IMG/VR virus record: IMGVR_UViG_3300017762_003882
Coordinates: 1-33,086 of that record
From: a virus
Direction: 5' to 3' (one strand)
DNA length: 33,086 nucleotides
The notes beneath the pieces are model-generated. The model did not search any database and was not told where the DNA came from. It worked only from the letters and a program-made list of their open reading frames with translations. Positions 2,343 to 20,820 of this stretch are shown here, in pieces. How positions within the stretch are numbered: position 1 is the first letter of the stretch; the number at the start of each line of letters is the position of its first letter. Both the position numbers and the translations under genes were made by a program.

Positions 2343-2608
2343 AATTAACTGGACATGCATTTAAAAAAGGTTCTATAGTTTTACTAAACGGTAGACCTAT
2401 AGATAAAAAAGAAGTTATGAAGTTAACTAAAAATTGGAGTGAAAATCTAATTAAGCAATTTAAAAACCTTCTTAAACACGGTGGGGAAATTTTATTAGAA
2501 GAAGAAAACCAACATTTTATTATAAAAACCGATGGTCCTTTATTAAATTCACAGGGAGAAAAGGACGGAGGAATATTTAAAGGTCCTTCAATAGAAGACA
2601 GATTTTAA
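2339..2608 (+). CDS. Unknown 89-residue protein inserted inside the polymerase gene
   Basis: I do not recognise this protein. It lies between the two polymerase fragments, overlapping the upstream stop as ATGA and the downstream start as TAATG, so ribosomes could pass from one cistron to the next. The sequence is lysine-rich, with a predicted helical centre (about residues 22-48) followed by a strand-like stretch (EILLEEENQHFIIK). It has no LAGLIDADG, GIY-YIG, HNH or Hint/intein signatures, so it is not an obvious homing endonuclease or intein. At 270 bases the insert is also too small for a group I intron with an endonuclease. It may be a passenger gene, the remnant of a mobile element, or a small subunit that bridges the two polymerase halves. 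The tidy overlaps suggest it is translated. Confidence 0.7.
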   Translation: MKLTGHAFKKGSIVLLNGRPIDKKEVMKLTKNWSENLIKQFKNLLKHGGEILLEEENQHFIIKTDGPLLNSQGEKDGGIFKGPSIEDRF

Positions 2609-3540
2609 TGAAAGGATTAGAAACTACACCCTGGTATATTTGTAACGAAGAGGACACTAATTATTGTGCCTATATGGATACGGACTCTGTTTATATTCAT
2701 GCTGAGCCAATGCTAAGATATCTTTATCCGGACTTTGACACTATGTCCGATGAACAAAAAGACGAAGCATTAGAAAAAATTGCTCTTAAATATCAAGATG
2801 TTATTACTAATTCATATGATACATTAGCTGAAAATTGCTTTAATGTTAAGTCTCATAGACTTGAAATGAAAACAGAATGTGTTATTCGCTCAGCTTATTT
2901 TAGAGCCACTCGTAGATATGCCCAATGGATTACTAAACAAGAAGGTATAACTAAAGAATCACTTGATGTAAAGGGATTAGAGTTTAAGAAAGCAAATTTC
3001 CCTCCTATTTTAGGTAAATTTTTTAAGAATATATTAGTTGATGTTTTAAAGGGTACCCCTAAAGATGAAATAGATGAAAGGGTAAAGGCATTCCAACAAC
3101 AAATCCTTGATGGTACTCTTCCTTTAAAGGACCTAGGTAACCCCCAATCAGTAAAAAAACTAGATAAATATGTTAGTCATGGTCCTAGAGCAGGGGAAAT
3201 GTTTTCTACACTAGAAAAGGGAGCCACTGCAGCTATTAAAGCCACTGTTGCATATAATGATTTACTTAGATTTTGGAAACTTAACACGCAATATCCTTAC
3301 ATTACTCAGGGTAGTAAAGTAAAATGGATTTATCTTAAATCTAACCCATATCAAATAGAATCATTAGCATTTATGCCAGGTGCAAATATCCCACCTAAAA
3401 TTAATGATTTCATTGAGAAATATGCTGATAGGAAAAAGATTTTTGATAGTATTCTTCTAAATAAATTAGAAGGGTTTTTTGATGATTTAGGATGGGTTCT
3501 TAACTTAAACCCATACCACCAAATGTTTTTTAATTTTTAG
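2608..3540 (+). CDS. 43: DNA polymerase family B, C-terminal fragment (gp43-like)
   Basis: C-terminal part of the gp43-type polymerase: the rest of the palm and the thumb. Motif C is YMDTDS (residues 22-27), supplying the catalytic aspartates that pair with motif A on the upstream fragment. About 20 residues before motif C have no evident counterpart in uninterrupted T4-type polymerases and were probably made by the insertion. The DVKGLEFKKAN stretch (about 121-131) is typical of the region after the palm. The last residues are hydrophobic and aromatic (HQMFFNF), resembling the C-terminal clamp-binding peptide of T4/RB69 gp43. The fragment can act only together with the 562-residue upstream chain, as neither has a full set of catalytic residues. 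The sliding clamp gene follows after 2 bases. Confidence 0.92.
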   Translation: MKGLETTPWYICNEEDTNYCAYMDTDSVYIHAEPMLRYLYPDFDTMSDEQKDEALEKIALKYQDVITNSYDTLAENCFNVKSHRLEMKTECVIRSAYFRATRRYAQWITKQEGITKESLDVKGLEFKKANFPPILGKFFKNILVDVLKGTPKDEIDERVKAFQQQILDGTLPLKDLGNPQSVKKLDKYVSHGPRAGEMFSTLEKGATAAIKATVAYNDLLRFWKLNTQYPYITQGSKVKWIYLKSNPYQIESLAFMPGANIPPKINDFIEKYADRKKIFDSILLNKLEGFFDDLGWVLNLNPYHQMFFNF

Positions 3541-4328: not shown

Positions 4329-4805
4329 ACCGAGTAGCTTAGGCACTCACAAATTTTGTAACTATGAGTAGTACTATTTTTGAACGTAATGTTCACCCTT
4401 TTGATTTATTATTTCGAAACTTTTTCGAACCTGACCGTAATTTCTTTCCCGTAGTGGAAAGTAAAATTCCTCACCCCGTAGACATTTACGAGTCAGATTT
4501 TGGTCTACATTTTGAAGTTGCTTCCACTGGTCTCACTAAAAAAGATGTTCAAATTAACATCGAAGGAGACGTACTTCGTGTTTCTTACAATAAGGAGAAA
4601 AACGAAACAGATAATGGGTACAAGTATATTCACAGAGGAGTAGCTAAACGATCCTTTAATTTAGGATATAAAATTAGCTCTAAATTCAACCTACCGAAAT
4701 CAGCTGCTGAGATGAATGATGGATTATTAGAAATTTCAATCCCATTTGCTCAAGAAGCTAAACCCCGATCTTTAGAGATCAATTAATTGATTTGGCCTCC
4801 TAGGT
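4297..4805. repeat. 11-bp inverted repeat flanking hsp20
   Basis: ACCTAGGAGGC at 4297-4307 is exactly the reverse complement of GCCTCCTAGGT at 4795-4805. One arm lies upstream of hsp20 and the other just after its stop, both in non-coding DNA and both followed by T-rich sequence. The arms could pair in the mRNA or be a protein-binding site present twice. Chance cannot be excluded for an 11-mer. Confidence 0.5.
4364..4786 (+). CDS. Small heat shock protein, Hsp20 family
   Basis: An alpha-crystallin-type holdase that binds unfolding proteins without ATP. The alpha-crystallin domain runs from about residue 36 (HPVDIYESD) to 127, with FEVASTGLTKKDVQI (about 50-64) and the conserved G-x-L-x-I-x-IP motif seen here as DGLLEISIP (about 119-127). 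The C-terminal SLEI resembles the I-x-I tail that docks onto neighbouring subunits. The N-terminal part, with FDLLFRNFF, is hydrophobic and aromatic, as usual for oligomer assembly. Length (140) is normal. Hsp20 genes are frequent in T4-type marine phages. Here the gene begins a three-gene chaperone block with GroES and GroEL, but it is separated from them by its own spacer and a promoter. Confidence 0.93.
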   Translation: MSSTIFERNVHPFDLLFRNFFEPDRNFFPVVESKIPHPVDIYESDFGLHFEVASTGLTKKDVQINIEGDVLRVSYNKEKNETDNGYKYIHRGVAKRSFNLGYKISSKFNLPKSAAEMNDGLLEISIPFAQEAKPRSLEIN

Positions 4806-4822
4806 TATTTTTTGTATATTTA
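4791..4822 (+). promoter_or_regulatory. Promoter for groES-groEL
   Basis: TTTG at 4791-4794 and TATATTTA at 4815-4822 are separated by exactly 20 bases, the spacing found at four other sites in this window. The ATG of groES is 16 bases after the second box. The layout matches the Bacteroidota housekeeping promoter (TTTG, about 20 bases, TAnnTTTG) apart from the last base. Confidence 0.7.
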
Positions 4823-4838
4823 AATCTTAAAAAAGTTT

Positions 4839-5159
4839 ATGAAGAAGTTAGAAGCATTGTTTGATGCAGTTATTGTAAAACCAGTAGAAGAAGAAGATAC
4901 TACTTATGGTTCAATTGTAGTCCCTGATATGGGTAAAGAAAAAAACCAACATGCCGTAGTTGTTGCTATTGGTCCTGGAAAACGAACCATTAATGGAAAC
5001 CTAATTCCTACTACAGCAGAAGTTGGACAAACCGTAATTGTCCCCACTATGGGATTTACGCGCATGGAATTTGAGGGAGAGGAGTATTATGTAGGACCCG
5101 AGAACCAACTATTAGCCCGTATTACTGATGAAGATTACCAACAAAAATTACCGTTTTAA
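4839..5159 (+). CDS. groES: Co-chaperonin GroES
   Basis: Lid subunit of the chaperonin, the functional counterpart of T4 gp31. The GroES fold is visible from DAVIVKPVEEE (about residues 9-19) through the flexible mobile loop with its hydrophobic tip (YGSIVVP, 23-29), which contacts GroEL. The HAVVVAIGPG segment follows (about 38-47), and then the second half (VGQTVIVP, EEYYVGPENQLLARI). Length is 106, between E. coli GroES (97) and gp31 (111). Unlike gp31, it resembles ordinary bacterial GroES closely enough to recognise by eye. It lies 10 bases upstream of groEL, in the order of bacterial groESL operons, under the promoter at 4791-4822. Confidence 0.95.
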   Translation: MKKLEALFDAVIVKPVEEEDTTYGSIVVPDMGKEKNQHAVVVAIGPGKRTINGNLIPTTAEVGQTVIVPTMGFTRMEFEGEEYYVGPENQLLARITDEDYQQKLPF

Positions 5160-5169
5160 TTAAAAGTTT

Positions 5170-6798
5170 ATGTCAAAAATTATCAATTTAGGAACAGAAT
5201 CCAGAGAAAAACTGGTTAAAGGTATTAATACCCTAGCGGATGCCGTTGTGTCTACTTTAGGACCAAATGGACGAAATGTGGTTATTTCTAACCCAAATGA
5301 ATCCGTTAAGTCAACTAAAGATGGTGTAACTGTAGCTAAAAACATTGTATTGAAAGATCCTGTTGAAGAAACAGGTGTTCAACTTGTAAAACAAGCAGCC
5401 ATTCAAACCGCAGATTCAGCAGGTGATGGAACAACCACCTCAACCCTACTAGCGCGAGAAATGATTAATAATGGATTATCTCATATCAATCGTGGTGTTA
5501 ATGCTGTAGAAGTAAAACGAGGGATGGATTATGCAACTAAAGAAGTTGTGGGTTATCTCCATGATATCTTAACAGAAGATATTTCGTCTGAAGAACAACT
5601 TGAACAAGTTGCCACCATTTCAGCTAACAATGATCCCGAAGTAGGAAAATTAATTGCTACTGCAATTGAAAAGGTAGGACGTGATGGTGTAGTTCATATT
5701 GAAGAATCTAAATCAGGTGAAACATATCTTGAAACTGTTGAGGGTATGCAATTTGATAGAGGTTATAAATCACACTATTTCGTTACGGATAATAATACAA
5801 TGTCTTGTACATTAGATAATCCTTACATTCTAATTGCAGACCACCGTTTCACCCAAGTAAAAGAATTATTGCCTATTTTAGAAAGTGTTTCAAATACAAA
5901 CCGTTCTCTCTTAATTATTGCGGATGATATTGATAATGAAGCTCTAGCAACTCTAATTGTAAATAAAGCACGAGGTACACTAAAAGTAGCTGCTGTTAAA
6001 GCACCTGAGTTTGGAGATCGTAAAAAACTTGTTCTTGAAGATATTGCTACTCTAACAGGAGGTCAGGTATTTAATAAAGAACGAGGAATGAAACTCGAAA
6101 AATTTAGTTGGGATTGGTTTGGTGAAGCCCGTACAGTTACAATTTCTAAGGACCAAACAACATTAGTTGATGGTAAAGGAGAAGCTAAGGGGATTGAATC
6201 ACGAGTTGAAGAACTACAAAATCAAATTGATAATGCAGCTTCTCCATTTGAGCGAGAAAAACTACAAGATCGTTTAGGACGAATGATAGGGGGTGTTTCT
6301 ATTATCCATGTAGGTGGTTATAACGAAACTGAAATGAATGAAAAGAAAGATCGAGTTGACGATGCCCTAAATGCCACAAAAGCTGCACTTGAAGAAGGTA
6401 TTGTACCTGGAGGTGGCTCTGCCTTATTATATGCAAGTCAAAACACAGTTGAAAACGAAGAGAATTCAGTTGACTTCAATATTGGAGTAAATATCGTAAA
6501 ATCCGCTTGCTATGTACCCCTTAAACAAATTATGTCCAATGCAGGTTTTGAAACTAAGGATATTTACCAAACAATAAACAATCTTCTTAGTAGTGATGAT
6601 AACTGGCTAGGGTTAAACGTTTCTAAAGATGAAAATGTTAATATGAAAGAACATGGGATTATCGATCCTACTAAGGTTACAAGAACGGCTTTAGAAAATG
6701 CAACATCAGTTGCAGGGACAGTTTTATTAACAGAATGTGTTGTTGTAGAAGAGCCTGCTAAGGAAGAAGCTACACCTGGACTAAATGGTATGTTTTAA
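5170..6798 (+). CDS. groEL: Chaperonin GroEL
   Basis: Full-length 60-kDa chaperonin, 542 residues against 548 in E. coli. ATP-binding and hydrolysis residues are kept: GPNGRNV (31-37), TKDGVTVAK (49-57, with the D52 equivalent), GDGTTT (85-90) and the aspartate of VDDALNATKAALEEG (E. coli D398 region), followed by IVPGGGSALL. The apical segment KAPEFGDRKK and DIATLTGGQVF are typical. The usual GGM-rich tail is replaced by a short acidic end and NGMF. The intact active site suggests a working, probably virion-directed chaperonin rather than a relic. Complete groEL genes are rare in phages; T4 itself supplies only the co-chaperonin and uses host GroEL. The start follows AAAAGTTT, and the stop overlaps the next ATG (TAATG). 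Confidence 0.97.
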   Translation: MSKIINLGTESREKLVKGINTLADAVVSTLGPNGRNVVISNPNESVKSTKDGVTVAKNIVLKDPVEETGVQLVKQAAIQTADSAGDGTTTSTLLAREMINNGLSHINRGVNAVEVKRGMDYATKEVVGYLHDILTEDISSEEQLEQVATISANNDPEVGKLIATAIEKVGRDGVVHIEESKSGETYLETVEGMQFDRGYKSHYFVTDNNTMSCTLDNPYILIADHRFTQVKELLPILESVSNTNRSLLIIADDIDNEALATLIVNKARGTLKVAAVKAPEFGDRKKLVLEDIATLTGGQVFNKERGMKLEKFSWDWFGEARTVTISKDQTTLVDGKGEAKGIESRVEELQNQIDNAASPFEREKLQDRLGRMIGGVSIIHVGGYNETEMNEKKDRVDDALNATKAALEEGIVPGGGSALLYASQNTVENEENSVDFNIGVNIVKSACYVPLKQIMSNAGFETKDIYQTINNLLSSDDNWLGLNVSKDENVNMKEHGIIDPTKVTRTALENATSVAGTVLLTECVVVEEPAKEEATPGLNGMF

Positions 6799-12682: not shown

Positions 12683-13136
12683 TCTTATTCACTGCAGTCG
12701 ATGTGAAAGCGATGCCTGTTATATTCAAGAAGTAAATGAATCTATTAAAAACTATATGTGTTATGGATGTGGTTTTCAAACTAATTCTTTAATGAAAAAG
12801 GATGAGGTTTTTTTTGAAGAACAAATGGAAACTCTTCCTAATTTATATAAAGAATTAATGGGTGAAGATGAAGAAGGAAAAATTTGGATGCCTTCTACTG
12901 TAAATATTCCTGAAAAAGGAATGGTATTTGCAAATGGTCCTAATGCATCTGCTTGGATGTGGGGAGCTGTTAAAGCTGTACCTGTAAAAGATGAAAATAG
13001 AAAAAAATACCCTATCCCAGGTAAAAAAGGAGAATATTATAAATTTAGAATGGATATGGATACCCTTAAAAATTTTGAAGAGCGTGATTATATGGAAGCT
13101 CTTGAATATATTGGGGTTTTCGAAAATCAAGAATAA
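12675..13136 (+). CDS. Zinc-ribbon protein of unknown function
   Basis: A 153-residue protein whose first 40 residues hold two CxxC knuckles (CSRC and CYGC) about 20 residues apart, a zinc ribbon. Downstream come an acidic helix (about 45-65), a W-rich stretch (NASAWMWGAVKAVPV) and an ending in EALEYIGVFE. The function is unknown to me. The ribbon suggests binding of nucleic acid or protein. It is translationally linked to the GT genes on both sides (8-base overlap upstream, TAATG downstream). It may be a phage core gene that the sugar genes surround, or part of the pathway. Confidence 0.75.
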   Translation: MDNLIHCSRCESDACYIQEVNESIKNYMCYGCGFQTNSLMKKDEVFFEEQMETLPNLYKELMGEDEEGKIWMPSTVNIPEKGMVFANGPNASAWMWGAVKAVPVKDENRKKYPIPGKKGEYYKFRMDMDTLKNFEERDYMEALEYIGVFENQE

Positions 13137-13756
13137 TGAATATAAGTTATGCTATTACAGTTTGTAATGAAAGGATTGAAATTGAAAAGTTAATTGGTTT
13201 TTTACTTCAAAATAAACAACCTGATGATGAAATTGTAGTATTATTTGATACTAATAATGGCACAAACGAGGTTGAACTATTTTTAGATACTGTATCTTCC
13301 CATATTTTATTACATAAATCCTCATTTAATTTCCATTTTGCTGATTGGAAAAATAAATTAAATTCATATTGTACTAAAGACTATATTTTTCAAATTGACG
13401 CAGATGAATTACCTGCTCAGGATTTAATTGATTCTGTACATGCTATAATCAAACAAGGTGTTGATGTGGTTCTAGTACCTAGAGAAAATACAGTTGAGGG
13501 TTTAACTGAAGAACATATTAAAAAGTGGGGATGGAGAGTAGATGAAATGAGTCGAGTTAATTGGCCTGATTATCAATGGAGATTATATCGTAATGATTCT
13601 TCAATAAAATGGATAAATAAAGTGCATGAGAAGTTGGATGGGTATAAAACATTTAGTACCTTACCACCAGAAATAGAATATGGAATGTTATTTTTACATC
13701 ACCCTAAAACTATTAGTAGACAAGAAAAACAAAATGAGTTTTACGAAAAAATTTAA
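13136..13756 (+). CDS. GT-A glycosyltransferase (GT2-like)
   Basis: A short inverting-type GT-A transferase, 206 residues. It begins ISYAITVCNE (3-12), the first strand of the family, has DDEIVVLFD (30-38), and the metal-binding DxD as D88-A-D90 in QIDADE. The later stretch WRLYRND...INKVHE resembles the C-terminal part of GT2 proteins found in phage and capsule clusters. It lacks a membrane segment. Donor and acceptor are unknown. The start overlaps the previous stop, and 3 bases separate it from the phosphatase gene. Confidence 0.82.
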   Translation: MNISYAITVCNERIEIEKLIGFLLQNKQPDDEIVVLFDTNNGTNEVELFLDTVSSHILLHKSSFNFHFADWKNKLNSYCTKDYIFQIDADELPAQDLIDSVHAIIKQGVDVVLVPRENTVEGLTEEHIKKWGWRVDEMSRVNWPDYQWRLYRNDSSIKWINKVHEKLDGYKTFSTLPPEIEYGMLFLHHPKTISRQEKQNEFYEKI

Positions 13757-13759
13757 AAT

Positions 13760-14074
13760 ATGAAAGTTTTTGTTGATATAGATGATACTATATGTTTTTA
13801 TGAGGATGGTTTGAATAAGTTTTCCCTAAAAAGGGATTATTCTGAAGCCGTTCCTAATTTAGAATATATAGCTAAAATTAATAAATTATATGATGAAGGT
13901 CATCATATAAAATATTGGACAGCTCGTGGAACTGTTACGGGATTAGATTGGTTAGAAGTTACTACTAATCAATTAAAAGAATGGGGGTGCAAATATCATG
14001 AATTGAGTGTAGGAGAAAAACCTGCATATGATTTACTAATTTGTGATAAAACTAAACGTATAGAAGAATTATGA
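13760..14074 (+). CDS. HAD-family phosphatase
   Basis: A small (104 residues) HAD-type phosphohydrolase. The nucleophile motif DxDxT is D6-I-D8-D-T10, the second motif is the T of YWTARGT (about 53-59), and the acidic motif IV is near the end (LLICDKTKR). Such short capsule-type HAD proteins remove phosphate from sugar phosphates. It overlaps by 4 bases a gene for a cytidylyltransferase-aldolase fusion. By analogy with the KDO and nonulosonic-acid pathways, where a HAD enzyme dephosphorylates the keto-acid sugar before CMP activation, it may act on the product of that aldolase. This link is inference. Confidence 0.85.
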   Translation: MKVFVDIDDTICFYEDGLNKFSLKRDYSEAVPNLEYIAKINKLYDEGHHIKYWTARGTVTGLDWLEVTTNQLKEWGCKYHELSVGEKPAYDLLICDKTKRIEEL

Positions 14075-15708
14075 AAATAGGTAAAATAACTGCTGTAATA
14101 GCAGTAAGAAAAAATTCTGAAAGGGTTAAAAATAAAAATATTAAACCTTTTAATGATACTAATCTTTTAGAGAATAAAATTAAAACTCTTCTTAGGGTAA
14201 AGAACTTAGATGATATAATCGTAAGTAGCGATTGTGAAAAAATGTTATCTTTAGCCAATTCTCTAGGAGTAAAAACTCATATTAGAGACGACTACTATGC
14301 TAGTAACGAATGCCCAGGCAGCGAAAACCTAAAATACCTAGCTCAAGAAATAGAATCAGACTATATTTTATATACCCCTGTAACTTCACCTCTAGTTAAG
14401 GCTGAAACATATGAATGGATTATCAATAAGTTTAGGAGTTTTGGAGATGAATTTGATAGTATAATTACTATTAATTATATAAAAGATTTTTTATGGTTAA
14501 ATGATAAACCTCTAAATTATAATCCCTTAAATTGTCCCCGTAGTCAAGATTTAAAATCAATCTTTAAGTTAAATTTTGGTGCTTGTTTGTTAAGTAGGGA
14601 AACTATGATAAAAAATAAGTACATAGTAGGGGATAAACCATATTGGCACGAATTAGAAAATAAAGAAGGAATTGATATAGATATTCCTTTTGATTTTAAT
14701 ATAGCTGAATTAGTATATGAAAAAAATGTAAAAGAAAAATTTACTAATAAAAAATCTATGATTTTAGATTGTACTATTAGAGACGGAGGGTTTGAAAATA
14801 ATTTTAATTTTACCGAAAAAGAGGTAAAACGTAACCTTAAAGCTAGTAGTGATATAGGTTATAATTATTTTGAGATAGGATATCTTACTGATCCTAAAAT
14901 CCTAACTAAAAAGGATGGTTTATGGAGAAATGTTCCTTTTAAGTTAATAACTAAAATTAAAAAAGAAATTAACCCTAGATGTAAAATTTCTGCTATGATA
15001 GATTGTTGGAGGTATAATATAAATGATTTACCCCCTAGCGATCAAACGGATATAGATTTAATTAGAGTTTGTAGTTACGAAGAACAAGTAGATATGGCTT
15101 TAAGTATGTGTAAAACTATAAAAAGTTTAGGTTATGAAGTATCCCTGAATATAATTTGCACTTCACACATATCTATTGATTCATTTATAGAATTAAGAAA
15201 TAAATTAATATCAGAAGATTTTTTAGATTTTTTATGTTTTGCTGACAGTTATGGTGCTTTGACCCCAGACTATGTTAAAAAAATAATGACATTATTTAGA
15301 AATATGAACCCTAATGTACTTATTGGTTTTCATGCTCATGATAATATGTCATTAAGTATGGCTAATACTATTACAGCATTAGAAAATGGTGCAGATATGG
15401 TTGATGGTACCTATACCGGCATTGGAAGGGGAGGAGGTAACTTACCCTTAGAAATTATTACTTTATATTTAAATATTTCTAAAAATTATAACTTAGATCT
15501 GAATGCTTTGTTTACATATCTAGATTTAACTACAAAGGATGAAGAGGATATAGAAAGAATTAAACAAGCTATTTGTGGCATTTTAAATGTTCATCCTTAT
15601 AGACTAAGAGATATAGCAGGAAAATCTATTTTAGAAACTTATACTGAGCTAAATAGCCTTTCTTTAAAGGATAAAGCTAGATACCCATCTAAATGGTTAA
15701 AAATATGA
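14071..15708 (+). CDS. Cytidylyltransferase fused to a DRE-TIM aldolase
   Basis: A 545-residue two-domain protein. Residues 1-225 resemble CMP-sialate/CMP-KDO synthetases: nucleotide-binding loop AVIAVRKNSERVKNKNIK-like (8-25), TPVTSPL (102-108) and an acidic pair (D202, D204) near the end of the domain. Residues 229-545 are a DRE-TIM barrel like 4-hydroxy-2-oxovalerate aldolase or homocitrate synthase, with the signature R237-D-G-G, the metal-binding HAH (421-423) and the glycine-rich IGRGGGNLPLE loop. Catalytic residues in both halves look intact. The aldolase could join pyruvate to an aldehyde and the first half could attach CMP to the acid. It overlaps the HAD phosphatase gene (ATGA) and is followed by a sialyltransferase-like protein. 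I do not know this fusion from standard pathways. Confidence 0.85.
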   Translation: MKIGKITAVIAVRKNSERVKNKNIKPFNDTNLLENKIKTLLRVKNLDDIIVSSDCEKMLSLANSLGVKTHIRDDYYASNECPGSENLKYLAQEIESDYILYTPVTSPLVKAETYEWIINKFRSFGDEFDSIITINYIKDFLWLNDKPLNYNPLNCPRSQDLKSIFKLNFGACLLSRETMIKNKYIVGDKPYWHELENKEGIDIDIPFDFNIAELVYEKNVKEKFTNKKSMILDCTIRDGGFENNFNFTEKEVKRNLKASSDIGYNYFEIGYLTDPKILTKKDGLWRNVPFKLITKIKKEINPRCKISAMIDCWRYNINDLPPSDQTDIDLIRVCSYEEQVDMALSMCKTIKSLGYEVSLNIICTSHISIDSFIELRNKLISEDFLDFLCFADSYGALTPDYVKKIMTLFRNMNPNVLIGFHAHDNMSLSMANTITALENGADMVDGTYTGIGRGGGNLPLEIITLYLNISKNYNLDLNALFTYLDLTTKDEEDIERIKQAICGILNVHPYRLRDIAGKSILETYTELNSLSLKDKARYPSKWLKI

Positions 15709-16481
15709 GAAGTGAGTTAGCTAATATAAAAAAAGATGTATGGTCTTATGAGGAAATGTATGATAGAGTAAAAGTACTTAAGGATACATTTAAGGGAGAA
15801 ACGGCCTATATTTGCACTGCAGGTCCTACTTTTAATACTTTTTCTAAATCTTTATTAAAAGAAAAATTAGAAAATGAATTAGTTATATCTATAAAACAAA
15901 CTCATGATGTTTTAGATGAATTAACTGATGTACATTTATTAAATTTTTGCAATTTAACTAAATATAATTATTCTAACTCTAATACTATAGTAGGTTGGGC
16001 TGTATGGGATAACCACCAACCCCAAGTAATTATAAATAACTTTCCTGTTGATTTTATATTAGATACTTTTAAATTAAATGATGGTACTCCTAATATTAAA
16101 AATACAATAGCTAAAACTGGGGAGTGGGAATGGTTAGATATAAATAAAAGCTTTTCTAGACCTTGGGGTCCTGGAACTATGTATGAGTTAGCTATTCCAT
16201 TAGCTTTATATATGGGCTGTTCTAAAATAGTAACTTTAGGTTGGGATTTATTTAAAAATACATTAAATGATCCTACTAAAAAGAATAGTGATTGGTGTTA
16301 TAATGATTTACAATTTCAACAAACTAAAACTGTAGGATCTACAGAAGAACTACAAATGGTTAGAGACTCTACAAAAGGATTATATGAATGGTTAAAAGAT
16401 AAAGGAGTAGAACTTATTATAATAGATCCAGATGGGGATAATCCAGCTTATCATAAAATAAAAAGACTAAAGGCATTATGA
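15705..16481 (+). CDS. DUF115/GT42-like putative glycosyltransferase
   Basis: 258 residues from this start. The start chosen overlaps the previous stop as ATGA, as at most junctions here; an ATG 12 bases upstream is also possible. The opening of the fold, ETAYICTAGPTF, is a Rossmann nucleotide-binding strand and loop. Near the C-terminus, GPGTMYELAIPLALYMGCSKI then TLGWDLF resembles the SG...A-IALGY...LSGIDFY pattern of Campylobacter-type sialyltransferases (GT42) and of the MAF/DUF115 group. Those enzymes use CMP-sugars or act on nonulosonic acids. The neighbouring CMP-transferase makes this assignment attractive. Alternatives are another Rossmann-fold kinase or pyrophosphokinase of the MptE type. 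Confidence 0.6.
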   Translation: MRSELANIKKDVWSYEEMYDRVKVLKDTFKGETAYICTAGPTFNTFSKSLLKEKLENELVISIKQTHDVLDELTDVHLLNFCNLTKYNYSNSNTIVGWAVWDNHQPQVIINNFPVDFILDTFKLNDGTPNIKNTIAKTGEWEWLDINKSFSRPWGPGTMYELAIPLALYMGCSKIVTLGWDLFKNTLNDPTKKNSDWCYNDLQFQQTKTVGSTEELQMVRDSTKGLYEWLKDKGVELIIIDPDGDNPAYHKIKRLKAL

Positions 16482-17251: not shown

Positions 17252-17972
17252 AAATTTAAAAGTTAAACATTTAAGTGATCCCTATCCAATTTGGATAATA
17301 GATAATTTCTTTAACGAAGACACACTTAACATTTTTAAAAAAGAATGGCCTGATTTAAGTTCACCTATATGGCATAAAGGCCATAAATTTATAGAAGGGA
17401 AGTTAAATATACTAGAACAAGGGATGAGGTCTATAAGTAAGTTAGGGGATATTCCACTAGAATCTTCTAAAATCCTTAAATATATCCATTCATTGGAATT
17501 TACTAATACTATTTCAGATTTAACAAATTCTTCTAATTTGATACCAGATGAAAGTTTTAGATGGTCAGGGTTAAGAGTTATGATGCCTGGCTCTTTTCAA
17601 GCAATTCATAGTGATGCTAGAATTAATCCTACAAATGGATTACGAAAAGAATTGACTTGTTTAGTTTATCTAAATGAGGAATATGATAAACATAACCATA
17701 CCGGACATTTTGAAGTATGGAATGACGATATGGATAAATGTGTTCACCGTATTGAACCTATTAACAATAGATTAGTTATATTTTTAAATACAGACAAATC
17801 TTACCATGGGGTGCCTGATGTGAATTTTGAGAGGAAAGCAGTTCTATGGAGTATTTTAAAAAATGAAAAGGCAGATAATCGAAGTAAAGCTTTATTTGTA
17901 TCCCGACCTAATGATTCGGATGAAATTAATAAATTAGGGCAGGAAAGAGCCTATATAAAAGATGCTATGTGA
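17235..17972 (+). CDS. 2-oxoglutarate/Fe(II) dioxygenase
   Basis: A 245-residue jelly-roll dioxygenase of the prolyl-4-hydroxylase-like group. The iron-binding facial triad is H125-S-D127 and H191 (in SYHGVP), and R200 (in ERKAVLWS) would hold 2-oxoglutarate. These enzymes hydroxylate proteins, nucleic acids or small molecules; the substrate is not predictable. They are common in T4-type marine phages. Its place inside the sugar block, overlapping the GT8-like gene, suggests that it hydroxylates a sugar, an acceptor or a side chain to be glycosylated. The last 25 residues are charged and outside the core. Confidence 0.87.
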   Translation: MNIINKNLKVKHLSDPYPIWIIDNFFNEDTLNIFKKEWPDLSSPIWHKGHKFIEGKLNILEQGMRSISKLGDIPLESSKILKYIHSLEFTNTISDLTNSSNLIPDESFRWSGLRVMMPGSFQAIHSDARINPTNGLRKELTCLVYLNEEYDKHNHTGHFEVWNDDMDKCVHRIEPINNRLVIFLNTDKSYHGVPDVNFERKAVLWSILKNEKADNRSKALFVSRPNDSDEINKLGQERAYIKDAM

Positions 17973-17973
17973 T

Positions 17974-19104
17974 ATGAAATATCCAATGTTTAAAGTCCAC
18001 ATGGACACCAAATCTGCACTTTCTAATTTACAAAAAGTACTAGATAGTGGTTTTTTAAATGAAGGAGAACAGGTTATGGAGCTAACTACTCACTTTTCTA
18101 AATATTTTGATCATAATTCAATAGTACCCCTAAATAGCTGCACATCTGCTTTAACTTTAGCTTTAAAATTGTCTAATGTAAATCCGGGTGATGAAGTTAT
18201 TTCAACTTCTATGACTTGTGTAGCTACAAATACTCCGATTAAAAATTTAGGAGCTAAAGTAGTATGGGCAGATATAGACAGTAAATCTGGAAATATTAAC
18301 CCCTCTACTATTGAAGATCTAATTACCACTAAAACAAAAGCTATTTTATGTGTAAATTGGTCAGGTATACCCTGTGAACTAGATAAATTATGGGGTATAG
18401 CTAAAAAATATAACATTAAACTTATCCAAGATGCAGCTCATTCCCTGGGAGCCATTTATAAAGGTAAACAAATCCACCATTTTGCTGATTTTACTTGTTA
18501 TAGTTTACAAGCTATAAAACATGTAACTACTGGAGATGGAGGTTTTTTAGTAGTAAATACTAACGAGTTAGATTTTAATAGGGCTAAAAAATTAAAATGG
18601 TTTGGGATAGATAGGGAGGCTACTAAGGATGAAAAAGGAGAATGGAAGGGACAAAGATGGGAGGTAGATGTGAAAGAAGCAGGATATAAATTCCATATGA
18701 ATAATATTTCAGCATCTATAGGTTTATCCCAACTCCCCCATTTAGATAATATTATAAGCAAACATATTAACAATGGTTTATATTACGAAAAATTATTTAA
18801 AAATAACCCCCACATAACACCCTTAAAATACCCAGATAATTCTATTCCATCATTTTGGGTTTATACTGTGTTGTTATCTAACCATTTAGATAGAGATAAG
18901 ATAATAACTTTATTAAATTCTGAGGGGATTAATGCTGGGTTAGTCCATGTTCCTAATCATCCTTATACATGTTTTAAGGAAAGTAAAGTAGAACTACCTC
19001 ATACACAGTATTTTAGTGAAAATCAAATTTCCCTTCCGTGTGGGTGGTGGTTATCTAAAAAAGATGTTAAATTTATAGCTGACTCATTACTTAGTAAAAT
19101 ATGA
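17974..19104 (+). CDS. PLP-dependent sugar aminotransferase (DegT/DnrJ/EryC1/StrS)
   Basis: Converts a 4-keto (or 3-keto) nucleotide sugar to the amino sugar using glutamate and PLP. Counting from an alternative ATG at 17962, the PLP lysine is K186 (SLQAIKHVTTGDGG), the ring-contacting aspartate is in IQDAAHS (about 155-161) and the phosphate site is NSCTSAL (about 58-64). Length about 376-380 is standard. The ATG at 17974, two bases after the oxygenase stop, gives a start typical of the family (KYPMFKV). Directly downstream are a formyltransferase and a 4,6-dehydratase, so the likely product is a 4-amino-6-deoxy sugar that is then formylated. Confidence 0.93.
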   Translation: MKYPMFKVHMDTKSALSNLQKVLDSGFLNEGEQVMELTTHFSKYFDHNSIVPLNSCTSALTLALKLSNVNPGDEVISTSMTCVATNTPIKNLGAKVVWADIDSKSGNINPSTIEDLITTKTKAILCVNWSGIPCELDKLWGIAKKYNIKLIQDAAHSLGAIYKGKQIHHFADFTCYSLQAIKHVTTGDGGFLVVNTNELDFNRAKKLKWFGIDREATKDEKGEWKGQRWEVDVKEAGYKFHMNNISASIGLSQLPHLDNIISKHINNGLYYEKLFKNNPHITPLKYPDNSIPSFWVYTVLLSNHLDRDKIITLLNSEGINAGLVHVPNHPYTCFKESKVELPHTQYFSENQISLPCGWWLSKKDVKFIADSLLSKI

Positions 19105-19835
19105 AAAGAATAGGCATATTAGGGAGCCGGGAATTATCTTGTAATATATTGAAGTTCATAAATAAACAAGATAATGTAGAAATTATAGGTGTAGTAGCCC
19201 CTCCTTTTAAAGGTTGGTGGAATGATAATCTTAAGGAAACAGCTTTATCTCTTAATATAAAAACACTTAATTCCATAGATGAATTAATAGAACTTAGTCC
19301 TGATTTAATATTTTCTATTAATTATTGGAAAATTATAAATAAAGATCATATTAATAGGGTTAAAGAGGGAATTATTAATATTCACCATTCTTACCTATTA
19401 AAATATAGAGGTAGATACTCAACTAGTTGGGCCATATATAATGCTAGAAAAAATAATAACTGGATACATGGTACTACTTTACATTATATTACAGAAAAAT
19501 TAGATGAAGGTCCTATTATAGCAAGTTATAAATGCAATATAGATGAGAATGATACTGCTGAGTCTTTATTTTTTAAAGTAGAAGAGTTAGCTTTACAAAT
19601 GTTTAAAGATTTTTATTTAAAAATAATAAATGGTCCTGTACTACAAACTATGAAACCAGATCCTAATTACTTAGTTTATGGTAAAGACTCTAATAATAAT
19701 TTAGAACTAAAATACGGAACACCTATTGAAGAAGTTTATGACTTTGTAAGAGCTTGGTCTTTTAAGGATAGAAATAAACCCTATTTTAGATTTAAGGATA
19801 AAAAATTAACTATAAGCATAGAAGATGAAAAATAA
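19101..19835 (+). CDS. Nucleotide-sugar N-formyltransferase
   Basis: A 244-residue enzyme of the formyltransferase family (methionyl-tRNA formyltransferase fold) that transfers formyl from N10-formyltetrahydrofolate to a sugar amine. The catalytic N-x-H and downstream aspartate are visible: N93-I-H95 in INIHHSYLLKYRG and D135 in KLDEGPII. The short length and location directly after a DegT aminotransferase (4-base overlap) favour a sugar N-formyltransferase, as for N-formylperosamine or Qui4NFo, over a tRNA enzyme. The C-terminal 50 residues (EEVYDFVRAWSF) form the small domain typical of the sugar enzymes. Confidence 0.88.
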   Translation: MKRIGILGSRELSCNILKFINKQDNVEIIGVVAPPFKGWWNDNLKETALSLNIKTLNSIDELIELSPDLIFSINYWKIINKDHINRVKEGIINIHHSYLLKYRGRYSTSWAIYNARKNNNWIHGTTLHYITEKLDEGPIIASYKCNIDENDTAESLFFKVEELALQMFKDFYLKIINGPVLQTMKPDPNYLVYGKDSNNNLELKYGTPIEEVYDFVRAWSFKDRNKPYFRFKDKKLTISIEDEK

Positions 19836-20820
19836 AAGAATATTAATATTAGGAGGTACAGGTGCTTTAGGTAGGACCCTAATAAAAAGATACCAAAAAT
19901 CTAATAATATTTTTGTTTATAGTAGGGATGAACATAAGCATGTTAATATGCAAAAAGATTCTAATTATAATAAAAGTATCAAATATATAATAGGCGATGT
20001 TAAAGATAAAGATTCTATTAGAAATAGTATAGAAGATTTTAAACCCCATATTGTTATTAATACTGCAGCTTTAAAACATGTGCCTATTTGTGAAAATAAT
20101 GCTTTTGAGTCTGTTAATGTAAATATATTAGGACATCAAAATGTTATAGATGCAGTTAAAAGAAGTAACCATAGAATAGAATCTCTTATTTTTATATCTA
20201 CAGATAAAGCTTGTAAACCAATTAACATATATGGTATGTGTAAGGCTATTTCAGAAAGACTTTATATGGATTATGCTAATAAACAATCAGATATAAAAGT
20301 TTGTCTTGTGAGATATGGTAATGTTTTAGAATCCACTGGCTCAGTTATACCTTTTTTTAAAAGTTTATTAGATAATAAATCAAAATCTTTACCTATTACT
20401 GATCCCAGAATGACTAGATTTTTGCTTACTTTAGAACAGGCTACTGATTTAATAGAATGGGCATATAATCACCCAAATTCTCATGGAAAAATAGCAATAC
20501 CTAAAATAAAATCATTTTTAATAGTAAACATAGCTAAATCTCTTATAAAAAGTTATGGTCTAGAGGATATGGTAAATTTAGAAGTAGTAGGTATTAGACC
20601 AGGTGAAAAGGTGCATGAAGATATGATTTCCCCCGAGGAATGGTTAAAAACTGAGGATGATGAAAATTATTTAATTAACCAGGATTATAAATATTTCCCT
20701 CCAGGAGAACCTTCTATTTCCTGTATAAAATCTAAAAACTCATATTCTTATAGTTCAGATAATAATGTTATGAATTTTAAAGAAACTTTTAACTTTCTAA
20801 AAAAGTATAATATTATATGA
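19825..20820 (+). CDS. Nucleotide-sugar 4,6-dehydratase, extended SDR (PseB/FlaA1-like)
   Basis: 331 residues. The NAD(P)-binding loop is GGTGALG (10-16). The catalytic set is STDKA (125-129) with Y136-x3-K140 in IYGMCK. NTAALKHVPICE (79-90) is typical of the UDP-GlcNAc 4,6-dehydratase (PseB/FlaA1/CapD) group. It would make the 4-keto-6-deoxy intermediate used by the aminotransferase upstream. The start overlaps the formyltransferase gene by 11 bases. Whether it inverts C5 (PseB-like) or not cannot be told. The C-terminal end (SSDNNVMNFKETFNFL) also fits this family. Confidence 0.9.
   Translation: MKNKRILILGGTGALGRTLIKRYQKSNNIFVYSRDEHKHVNMQKDSNYNKSIKYIIGDVKDKDSIRNSIEDFKPHIVINTAALKHVPICENNAFESVNVNILGHQNVIDAVKRSNHRIESLIFISTDKACKPINIYGMCKAISERLYMDYANKQSDIKVCLVRYGNVLESTGSVIPFFKSLLDNKSKSLPITDPRMTRFLLTLEQATDLIEWAYNHPNSHGKIAIPKIKSFLIVNIAKSLIKSYGLEDMVNLEVVGIRPGEKVHEDMISPEEWLKTEDDENYLINQDYKYFPPGEPSISCIKSKNSYSYSSDNNVMNFKETFNFLKKYNII

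Follow-up and report, generated by a model that had tools for sequence, protein, structure and literature searches.

Three adjoining genes in a viral genome fragment probably make up a self-contained module that produces a 2-keto-3-deoxy sugar acid derived from pyruvate, activates it with CMP and transfers it to a glycan. The genes lie in the 33-kb IMG/VR virus record IMGVR_UViG_3300017762_003882, whose whole length of 33,086 nucleotides is referred to here as the window. They encode a small HAD phosphatase, a fusion of a cytidylyltransferase (CMP domain) with a DRE-TIM aldolase (ALD domain), and an MptE-like transferase. This reading is based on domain content, conserved catalytic residues, co-occurrence of the genes in other genomes and shuffling of their domains; from this evidence we infer the chemical steps, their direction, the substrate and the role of the module in infection. 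The type of aldolase found in the module is not used in the known CMP-ulosonate routes, which depend on PEP-dependent synthases (KdsA and the NeuB family).

Results

The window and its sugar gene run

The window has a GC content of 30.6%. Genes for T4-like replication proteins (DNA polymerase, clamp loader) and for GroEL precede a run of about 20 kb of sugar and glycosyltransferase genes; the three-gene module sits within the first third of this run. We infer from the gene content that the phage is marine. The coding sequence of the T4-like DNA polymerase is divided between two ORFs (654-2342 and 2608-3540, about 265 bases apart) that match adjoining stretches of a single PHROG profile (97-569 and 565-841). 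The phage GroEL falls in 4364-6798 (PHROG, 3.3e-153), preceded by Hsp20-like (4364-4786) and GroES-like (4839-5159) genes, both recognized by eye.

The original prediction of three adjoining, overlapping genes was borne out, with all ORFs present and tight overlaps (Table 1). The likelier start of the MptE-like ORF is the ATG at 15705, in an ATGA overlap, rather than 15693. Among the scanned ORFs of this 33-kb fragment there was no NeuB-like product and no KdsA, and within this scope a canonical Kdo or sialic acid operon was set aside, neither enzyme having been seen with the module. The aminotransferase, formyltransferase and dehydratase genes at 17962-20820 may constitute a formamido-sugar pathway.

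Table 1. Positions of the module and of neighbouring sugar genes in the window.
Feature	Position	Strand	Evidence or remark
GT2 glycosyltransferase	13136..13756	+	PF00535 2.2e-8; borders the module upstream, outside it
Small capless HAD phosphatase (104 aa)	13760..14074	+	phmmer 1.1e-11 to 9iqw, 'capsule biosynthesis protein'
Fusion ORF (545 aa)	14071..15708	+	in-frame CMP-ALD fusion
CMP domain, NeuA-type, N-terminal	14071..14742	+	aa 1-224
ALD domain, DRE-TIM, 3dxi/BVU_2661 type, C-terminal	14746..15708	+	aa 226-545
MptE-like (DUF115) protein	15693..16481	+	PF01973 2.6e-7; predicted CMP-ulosonate glycosyltransferase
PseC-like DegT aminotransferase	17962-19104		TIGR03588 252.8 bits, below the 423.5 cut-off
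Formyltransferase	19101-19835
PseB/CapD-like dehydratase	19825-20820		Polysacc_synt_2 3.5e-81

A cytidylyltransferase fused to an aldolase

The second gene joins a NeuA-type cytidylyltransferase in frame to an HMGL-type DRE-TIM aldolase. Both Pfam families scored above their cut-offs, PF02348 at 41.1 bits (cut-off 22.6; 2.2e-10; residues 8-122) and PF00682 at 85.5 bits (cut-off 29; 5.1e-24; residues 334-478), in agreement with the fusion originally proposed. The AlphaFold model shows two domains and is confident (pLDDT 88.5, pTM 0.82); compared with the PDB, one half matches 3dxi and DmpG and the other CMP-sialate and CMP-Kdn synthetases. An assembly artefact was rejected, since a fusion of the same length (545 aa) and 58% identity recurs in another phage record (L171); a fusion with the reverse domain order occurs in a further phage (L005). 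A 545-aa phage 'acylneuraminate cytidylyltransferase' matched in BFVD (A0A6J5PJY0, TM-score 0.32) may be another fusion.

By sequence, the CMP domain matches the CMP-Kdn synthetase PpNeuA (3.7e-14). Its residues R13, K22, K138, D202 and D204 align with R12, K21, K142, D209 and D211 of CMP-Neu5Ac synthetase, which take part in nucleotide and metal binding; Q104 of that enzyme has a metal or substrate role (PMC2901514), and the corresponding position in the window is not Gln (TPVTSP). Elsewhere, a SIS isomerase-HAD fusion (L002:7012-8001) stands directly 5' of a CMP transferase that is close kin of that in the window.

The closest solved aldolase to the ALD domain is 3dxi, from BVU_2661 (2.8e-41). 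The metal ligands and active-site Arg (R237, D238, H421 and H423) align with R17, D18, H200 and H202 of DmpG and are invariant in 23/23 relatives; the catalytic His21 of DmpG is replaced by Phe241. Hence, the claim that catalytic residues are present in both fused domains holds for most of them and fails at the Q104 and His21 positions, and on the strength of these two changes the substrate or the acid-base chemistry is expected to differ. Like DmpG and BphI, the ALD domain has a DRE-TIM barrel with the metal ligands and the conserved Arg. Unlike them, it has the His21 change, and no acetaldehyde dehydrogenase partner is encoded in the module. A 4-hydroxy-2-oxovalerate aldolase proper (DmpG, TIGR03217) was rejected on the His21 change and on the score (96.8 bits against a cut-off of 286).

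Standalone relatives of the ALD domain are found in non-glycan contexts, and for this reason pyruvate aldol chemistry in the subfamily is only putative. At 11 loci (L012 and ten others), mostly from Omnitrophota, a standalone ALD gene lies directly 5' of a KDPG-aldolase-like gene. In three phages (L008, L009 and L010), a DmpG-like aldolase adjoins a DmpF-like dehydrogenase and a TPP enzyme inside glycan clusters.

The phosphatase and the MptE-like protein

The HAD protein had no Pfam or NCBIfam match. It carries HAD motifs I-IV, namely DIDDT (D6, D8), T54, K87 and D96, all of them kept in a phage HAD protein (L001) with 49% identity; the first acid of motif IV, Asp in relatives, is C95.

The third gene had been described as a GT42-like transferase. 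By family, its sequence is MptE-like: it scores 31.0 bits against PF01973, just below the cut-off of 34.6, its homologue in L005 reaches 36.1 bits, and HHalign relates it to Bacteroidota MptE-like proteins at 97.2%. It is 30-32% identical to the genes adjoining the fusions in L171 and L005. No GT42 sequence-family match was obtained, nor any PDB sequence match to a glycosyltransferase. The nearest fold is the archaeal MptE/HPPK (8sd5), followed by the GT42 sialyltransferase CstII (1ro8; prob 0.99, E 2.2e-3, TM 0.44-0.46), both being distant likenesses (TM about 0.44) on a moderate-confidence model (pLDDT 67). The GT42 label therefore applies at most at the fold level. Transferases of the DUF115/MptE type are reminiscent of the Maf flagellin glycosyltransferases.

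Related modules in phages

In L171, a 168.8-kb phage record, genes for a HAD protein from a different subfamily and for an MptE-like protein come after the fusion. This record was found with a two-row alignment of the MptE-like protein; a scan with the window protein alone gave nothing. In L005, the reverse-order fusion (ALD-CMP) is followed by an MptE-like gene, and its CMP domain is KdsB-like (2.1e-39 to CMP-Kdo synthetase). Upstream genes (two GT1, one GT2) are common to the window, L171 and L005, the GT2 bordering the module having homologues in L171 (6e-52) and L005 (1e-51), whereas the downstream clusters differ. The module thus appears to move as a unit. It also looks independent of the aminotransferase, formyltransferase and CapD-like genes of the window, because the L171 cluster as read contains no homologue of them. 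Among annotated phages, neither the CMP domain nor the MptE-like protein had a match, and the ALD domain had two remote ones. At L175:10142-11700, the L005 phage has another NeuA-like CMP gene and, after it, a KdsA/DAHPS-like gene, which was recognized by eye and lies about 8 kb from the fusion; this phage may therefore have two ulosonate-type routes.

Cellular relatives

In a sample of 297 Bacteroidota genomes, eight ALD genes were picked by reading-frame length (about 510-535 aa) and not by their neighbours. Those that were read over their whole length encode a divergent MptE-like domain in their C-terminal part, and one of these proteins (L157) matches 3dxi at 2.5e-116. This two-domain structure fits the PDB label of 3dxi, the N-terminal domain of the putative aldolase BVU_2661. 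All eight ALD-MptE genes (7 genomes), a small sample of related members, had both a CMP transferase and a HAD gene no more than five genes away; in a broad genome scan, only one of 76 other ALD loci had a CMP gene within five genes. That locus, from a Clostridia MAG (L050), encodes an ALD-MptE fusion with a NeuA-like gene 5' of it. In bacterial capsule clusters, where the original prediction suggested looking for the fusion, the same parts occur together, with the aldolase in Bacteroidota fused to the MptE-like domain and not to the CMP domain.

The cassettes are not uniform. The CMP partners are KdsB-like in two of the eight (L163 and L164), and an HpcH/HpaI aldolase is also present in three, so the role of the ALD domain may not be a simple condensation. 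No sugar-supply gene common to the cassettes read stood out by eye, and the aldehyde may therefore come from central metabolism. Three further Bacteroidota clusters (L165, L167 and L168) contain HpcH aldolase, CMP transferase, GAPDH-like, HAD and MptE-like genes, possibly a sister pathway without a DRE-TIM aldolase. In Pseudomonadota, the best matches were aldolases with no CMP match listed alongside; one ALD match near a CMP gene (G505) lies in a GC-rich region with unreliable ORF calling.

A similar association emerged from the CMP side. Among the Bacteroidota loci closest to the CMP domain, with KdsB-like ones excluded, the best eight all had an ALD or HpcH/HpaI aldolase gene, a HAD gene and an MptE-like gene in their vicinity. 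NeuB was near none of these eight but near 6 of the next 13 loci. In the tree, the CMP domain of the window falls on the aldolase-linked side (98/97), nearest among cellular sequences to the CMP gene of the L157 cassette (96/93), and five of the six NeuB-linked sequences fall on the opposite side. The separation is good but imperfect, with L191, L169 and L050 as exceptions.

Discussion

In the pathway that we propose, the ALD domain would join pyruvate to an aldehyde, probably a phosphorylated one drawn from central metabolism. The HAD enzyme is predicted to remove the phosphate from this aldol product, an ulosonate phosphate; with CTP, the CMP domain would then activate the acid for the MptE-like protein to pass on to a glycan. 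With the reversible aldolase fused to a CTP-driven transferase, the reaction could be drawn in the forward direction. The assignment of four roles to three genes is supported by domain shuffling and by gene neighbourhoods in two other phages, Bacteroidota and Clostridia, with the glycosyltransferase family corrected and one catalytic residue of DmpG absent. Against it, MptE-like genes often accompany glycan genes, and the donor sugar has been established for few of them.

The order of the proposed steps (condensation, HAD phosphatase, CMP activation) is that of the Kdo pathway (KdsA, KdsC and KdsB), with a DRE-TIM aldolase in the place of the PEP-dependent KdsA and with an MptE-like transferase. 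The module shares a NeuA-type CMP transferase with the nonulosonic acid pathways (NeuB/PseI/LegI with NeuA/PseF/LegF); unlike these, it has no NeuB-type synthase in view, and its CMP domain is apart from most NeuB-linked ones. A close parallel is found in BVU_2661 of Bacteroides vulgatus and in the ALD-MptE capsule proteins of Bacteroidota, which have the same aldolase subfamily, an MptE-like domain and, in the loci read, CMP transferase and HAD genes nearby; they differ in that their aldolase shares a chain with the MptE-like domain, which in the window is a separate protein next to an aldolase-CMP transferase fusion.

We tentatively propose, as quite possible though short of an even chance, a new CMP-ulosonate route that occurs in the capsule loci of Bacteroidota and that marine T4-like phages have captured. 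In it, a metal-dependent DRE-TIM pyruvate aldolase would work with a HAD phosphatase, a CMP transferase dedicated to the route and an MptE-like transferase to make an acid unlike Kdo or the nonulosonic acids. A serious rival, which we regard as somewhat unlikely, is that a non-orthologous aldolase replaces the PEP-dependent KdsA or NeuB in making a known acid (Kdo, Kdn or nonulosonic), the route being new and the sugar not. The CMP domain of the window is indeed close to CMP-Kdn and CMP-sialate synthetases, and those of L005 and L164 to CMP-Kdo synthetases; however, the CMP transferases of the ALD and HpcH cassettes stand largely apart from NeuB-linked ones, the Q104 position is changed, and a second route to Kdo would be of little use to a host already making it. 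Because the CMP partners are NeuA-like at some loci and KdsB-like at others, a known acid could still be the product; the acid may, but need not, be distinct from known nonulosonic acids, as was originally claimed. These partners also suggest that different loci make different acids. Altogether, a different route is better supported than a different sugar, which is possible.

Other chemistry altogether is unlikely in our judgement: the ALD domain might use another 2-keto acid or carry out some other carbonyl reaction, with the CMP domain activating a different acid and the fusion channelling an unrelated CMP-acid. Such a view gains from the absence of His21, from the standalone relatives in unrelated contexts, including those paired with KDPG-aldolase-like genes, and from the co-occurrence of HpcH in three of the eight cassettes, but the metal ligands and Arg are invariant, and every ALD-MptE gene has a CMP transferase and a phosphatase in its vicinity. 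It is very improbable that the module belongs to a variant pseudaminic-type pathway in which the PseB/CapD-like, PseC-like and formyltransferase genes of the window supply the aldehyde. The PseC-like and PseB/CapD-like matches (Table 1) and a PseF-like score of 62.2 bits speak for it; yet both NCBIfam scores are under their cut-offs (205.7 for PseF), no homologues of those genes accompany the fusion in the L171 cluster as read, and the Pse route needs no HAD phosphatase.

No description of the fusion or of the cassette was found by title or abstract in the open-access literature, which is weak evidence of novelty as most subscription papers lie outside that search; nor was a published function found for 3dxi. 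The aldolase-based module that we favour would give a testable role to this solved structure, which has no assigned function, and would help to explain unannotated capsule genes of Bacteroidota. If true, a recurring route of this kind would mean a further class of acidic sugars at the surface, or else a new means of making known ones. Its carriage by phages suggests a use in remodelling glycans, which may be those of the host surface or of the virion itself.
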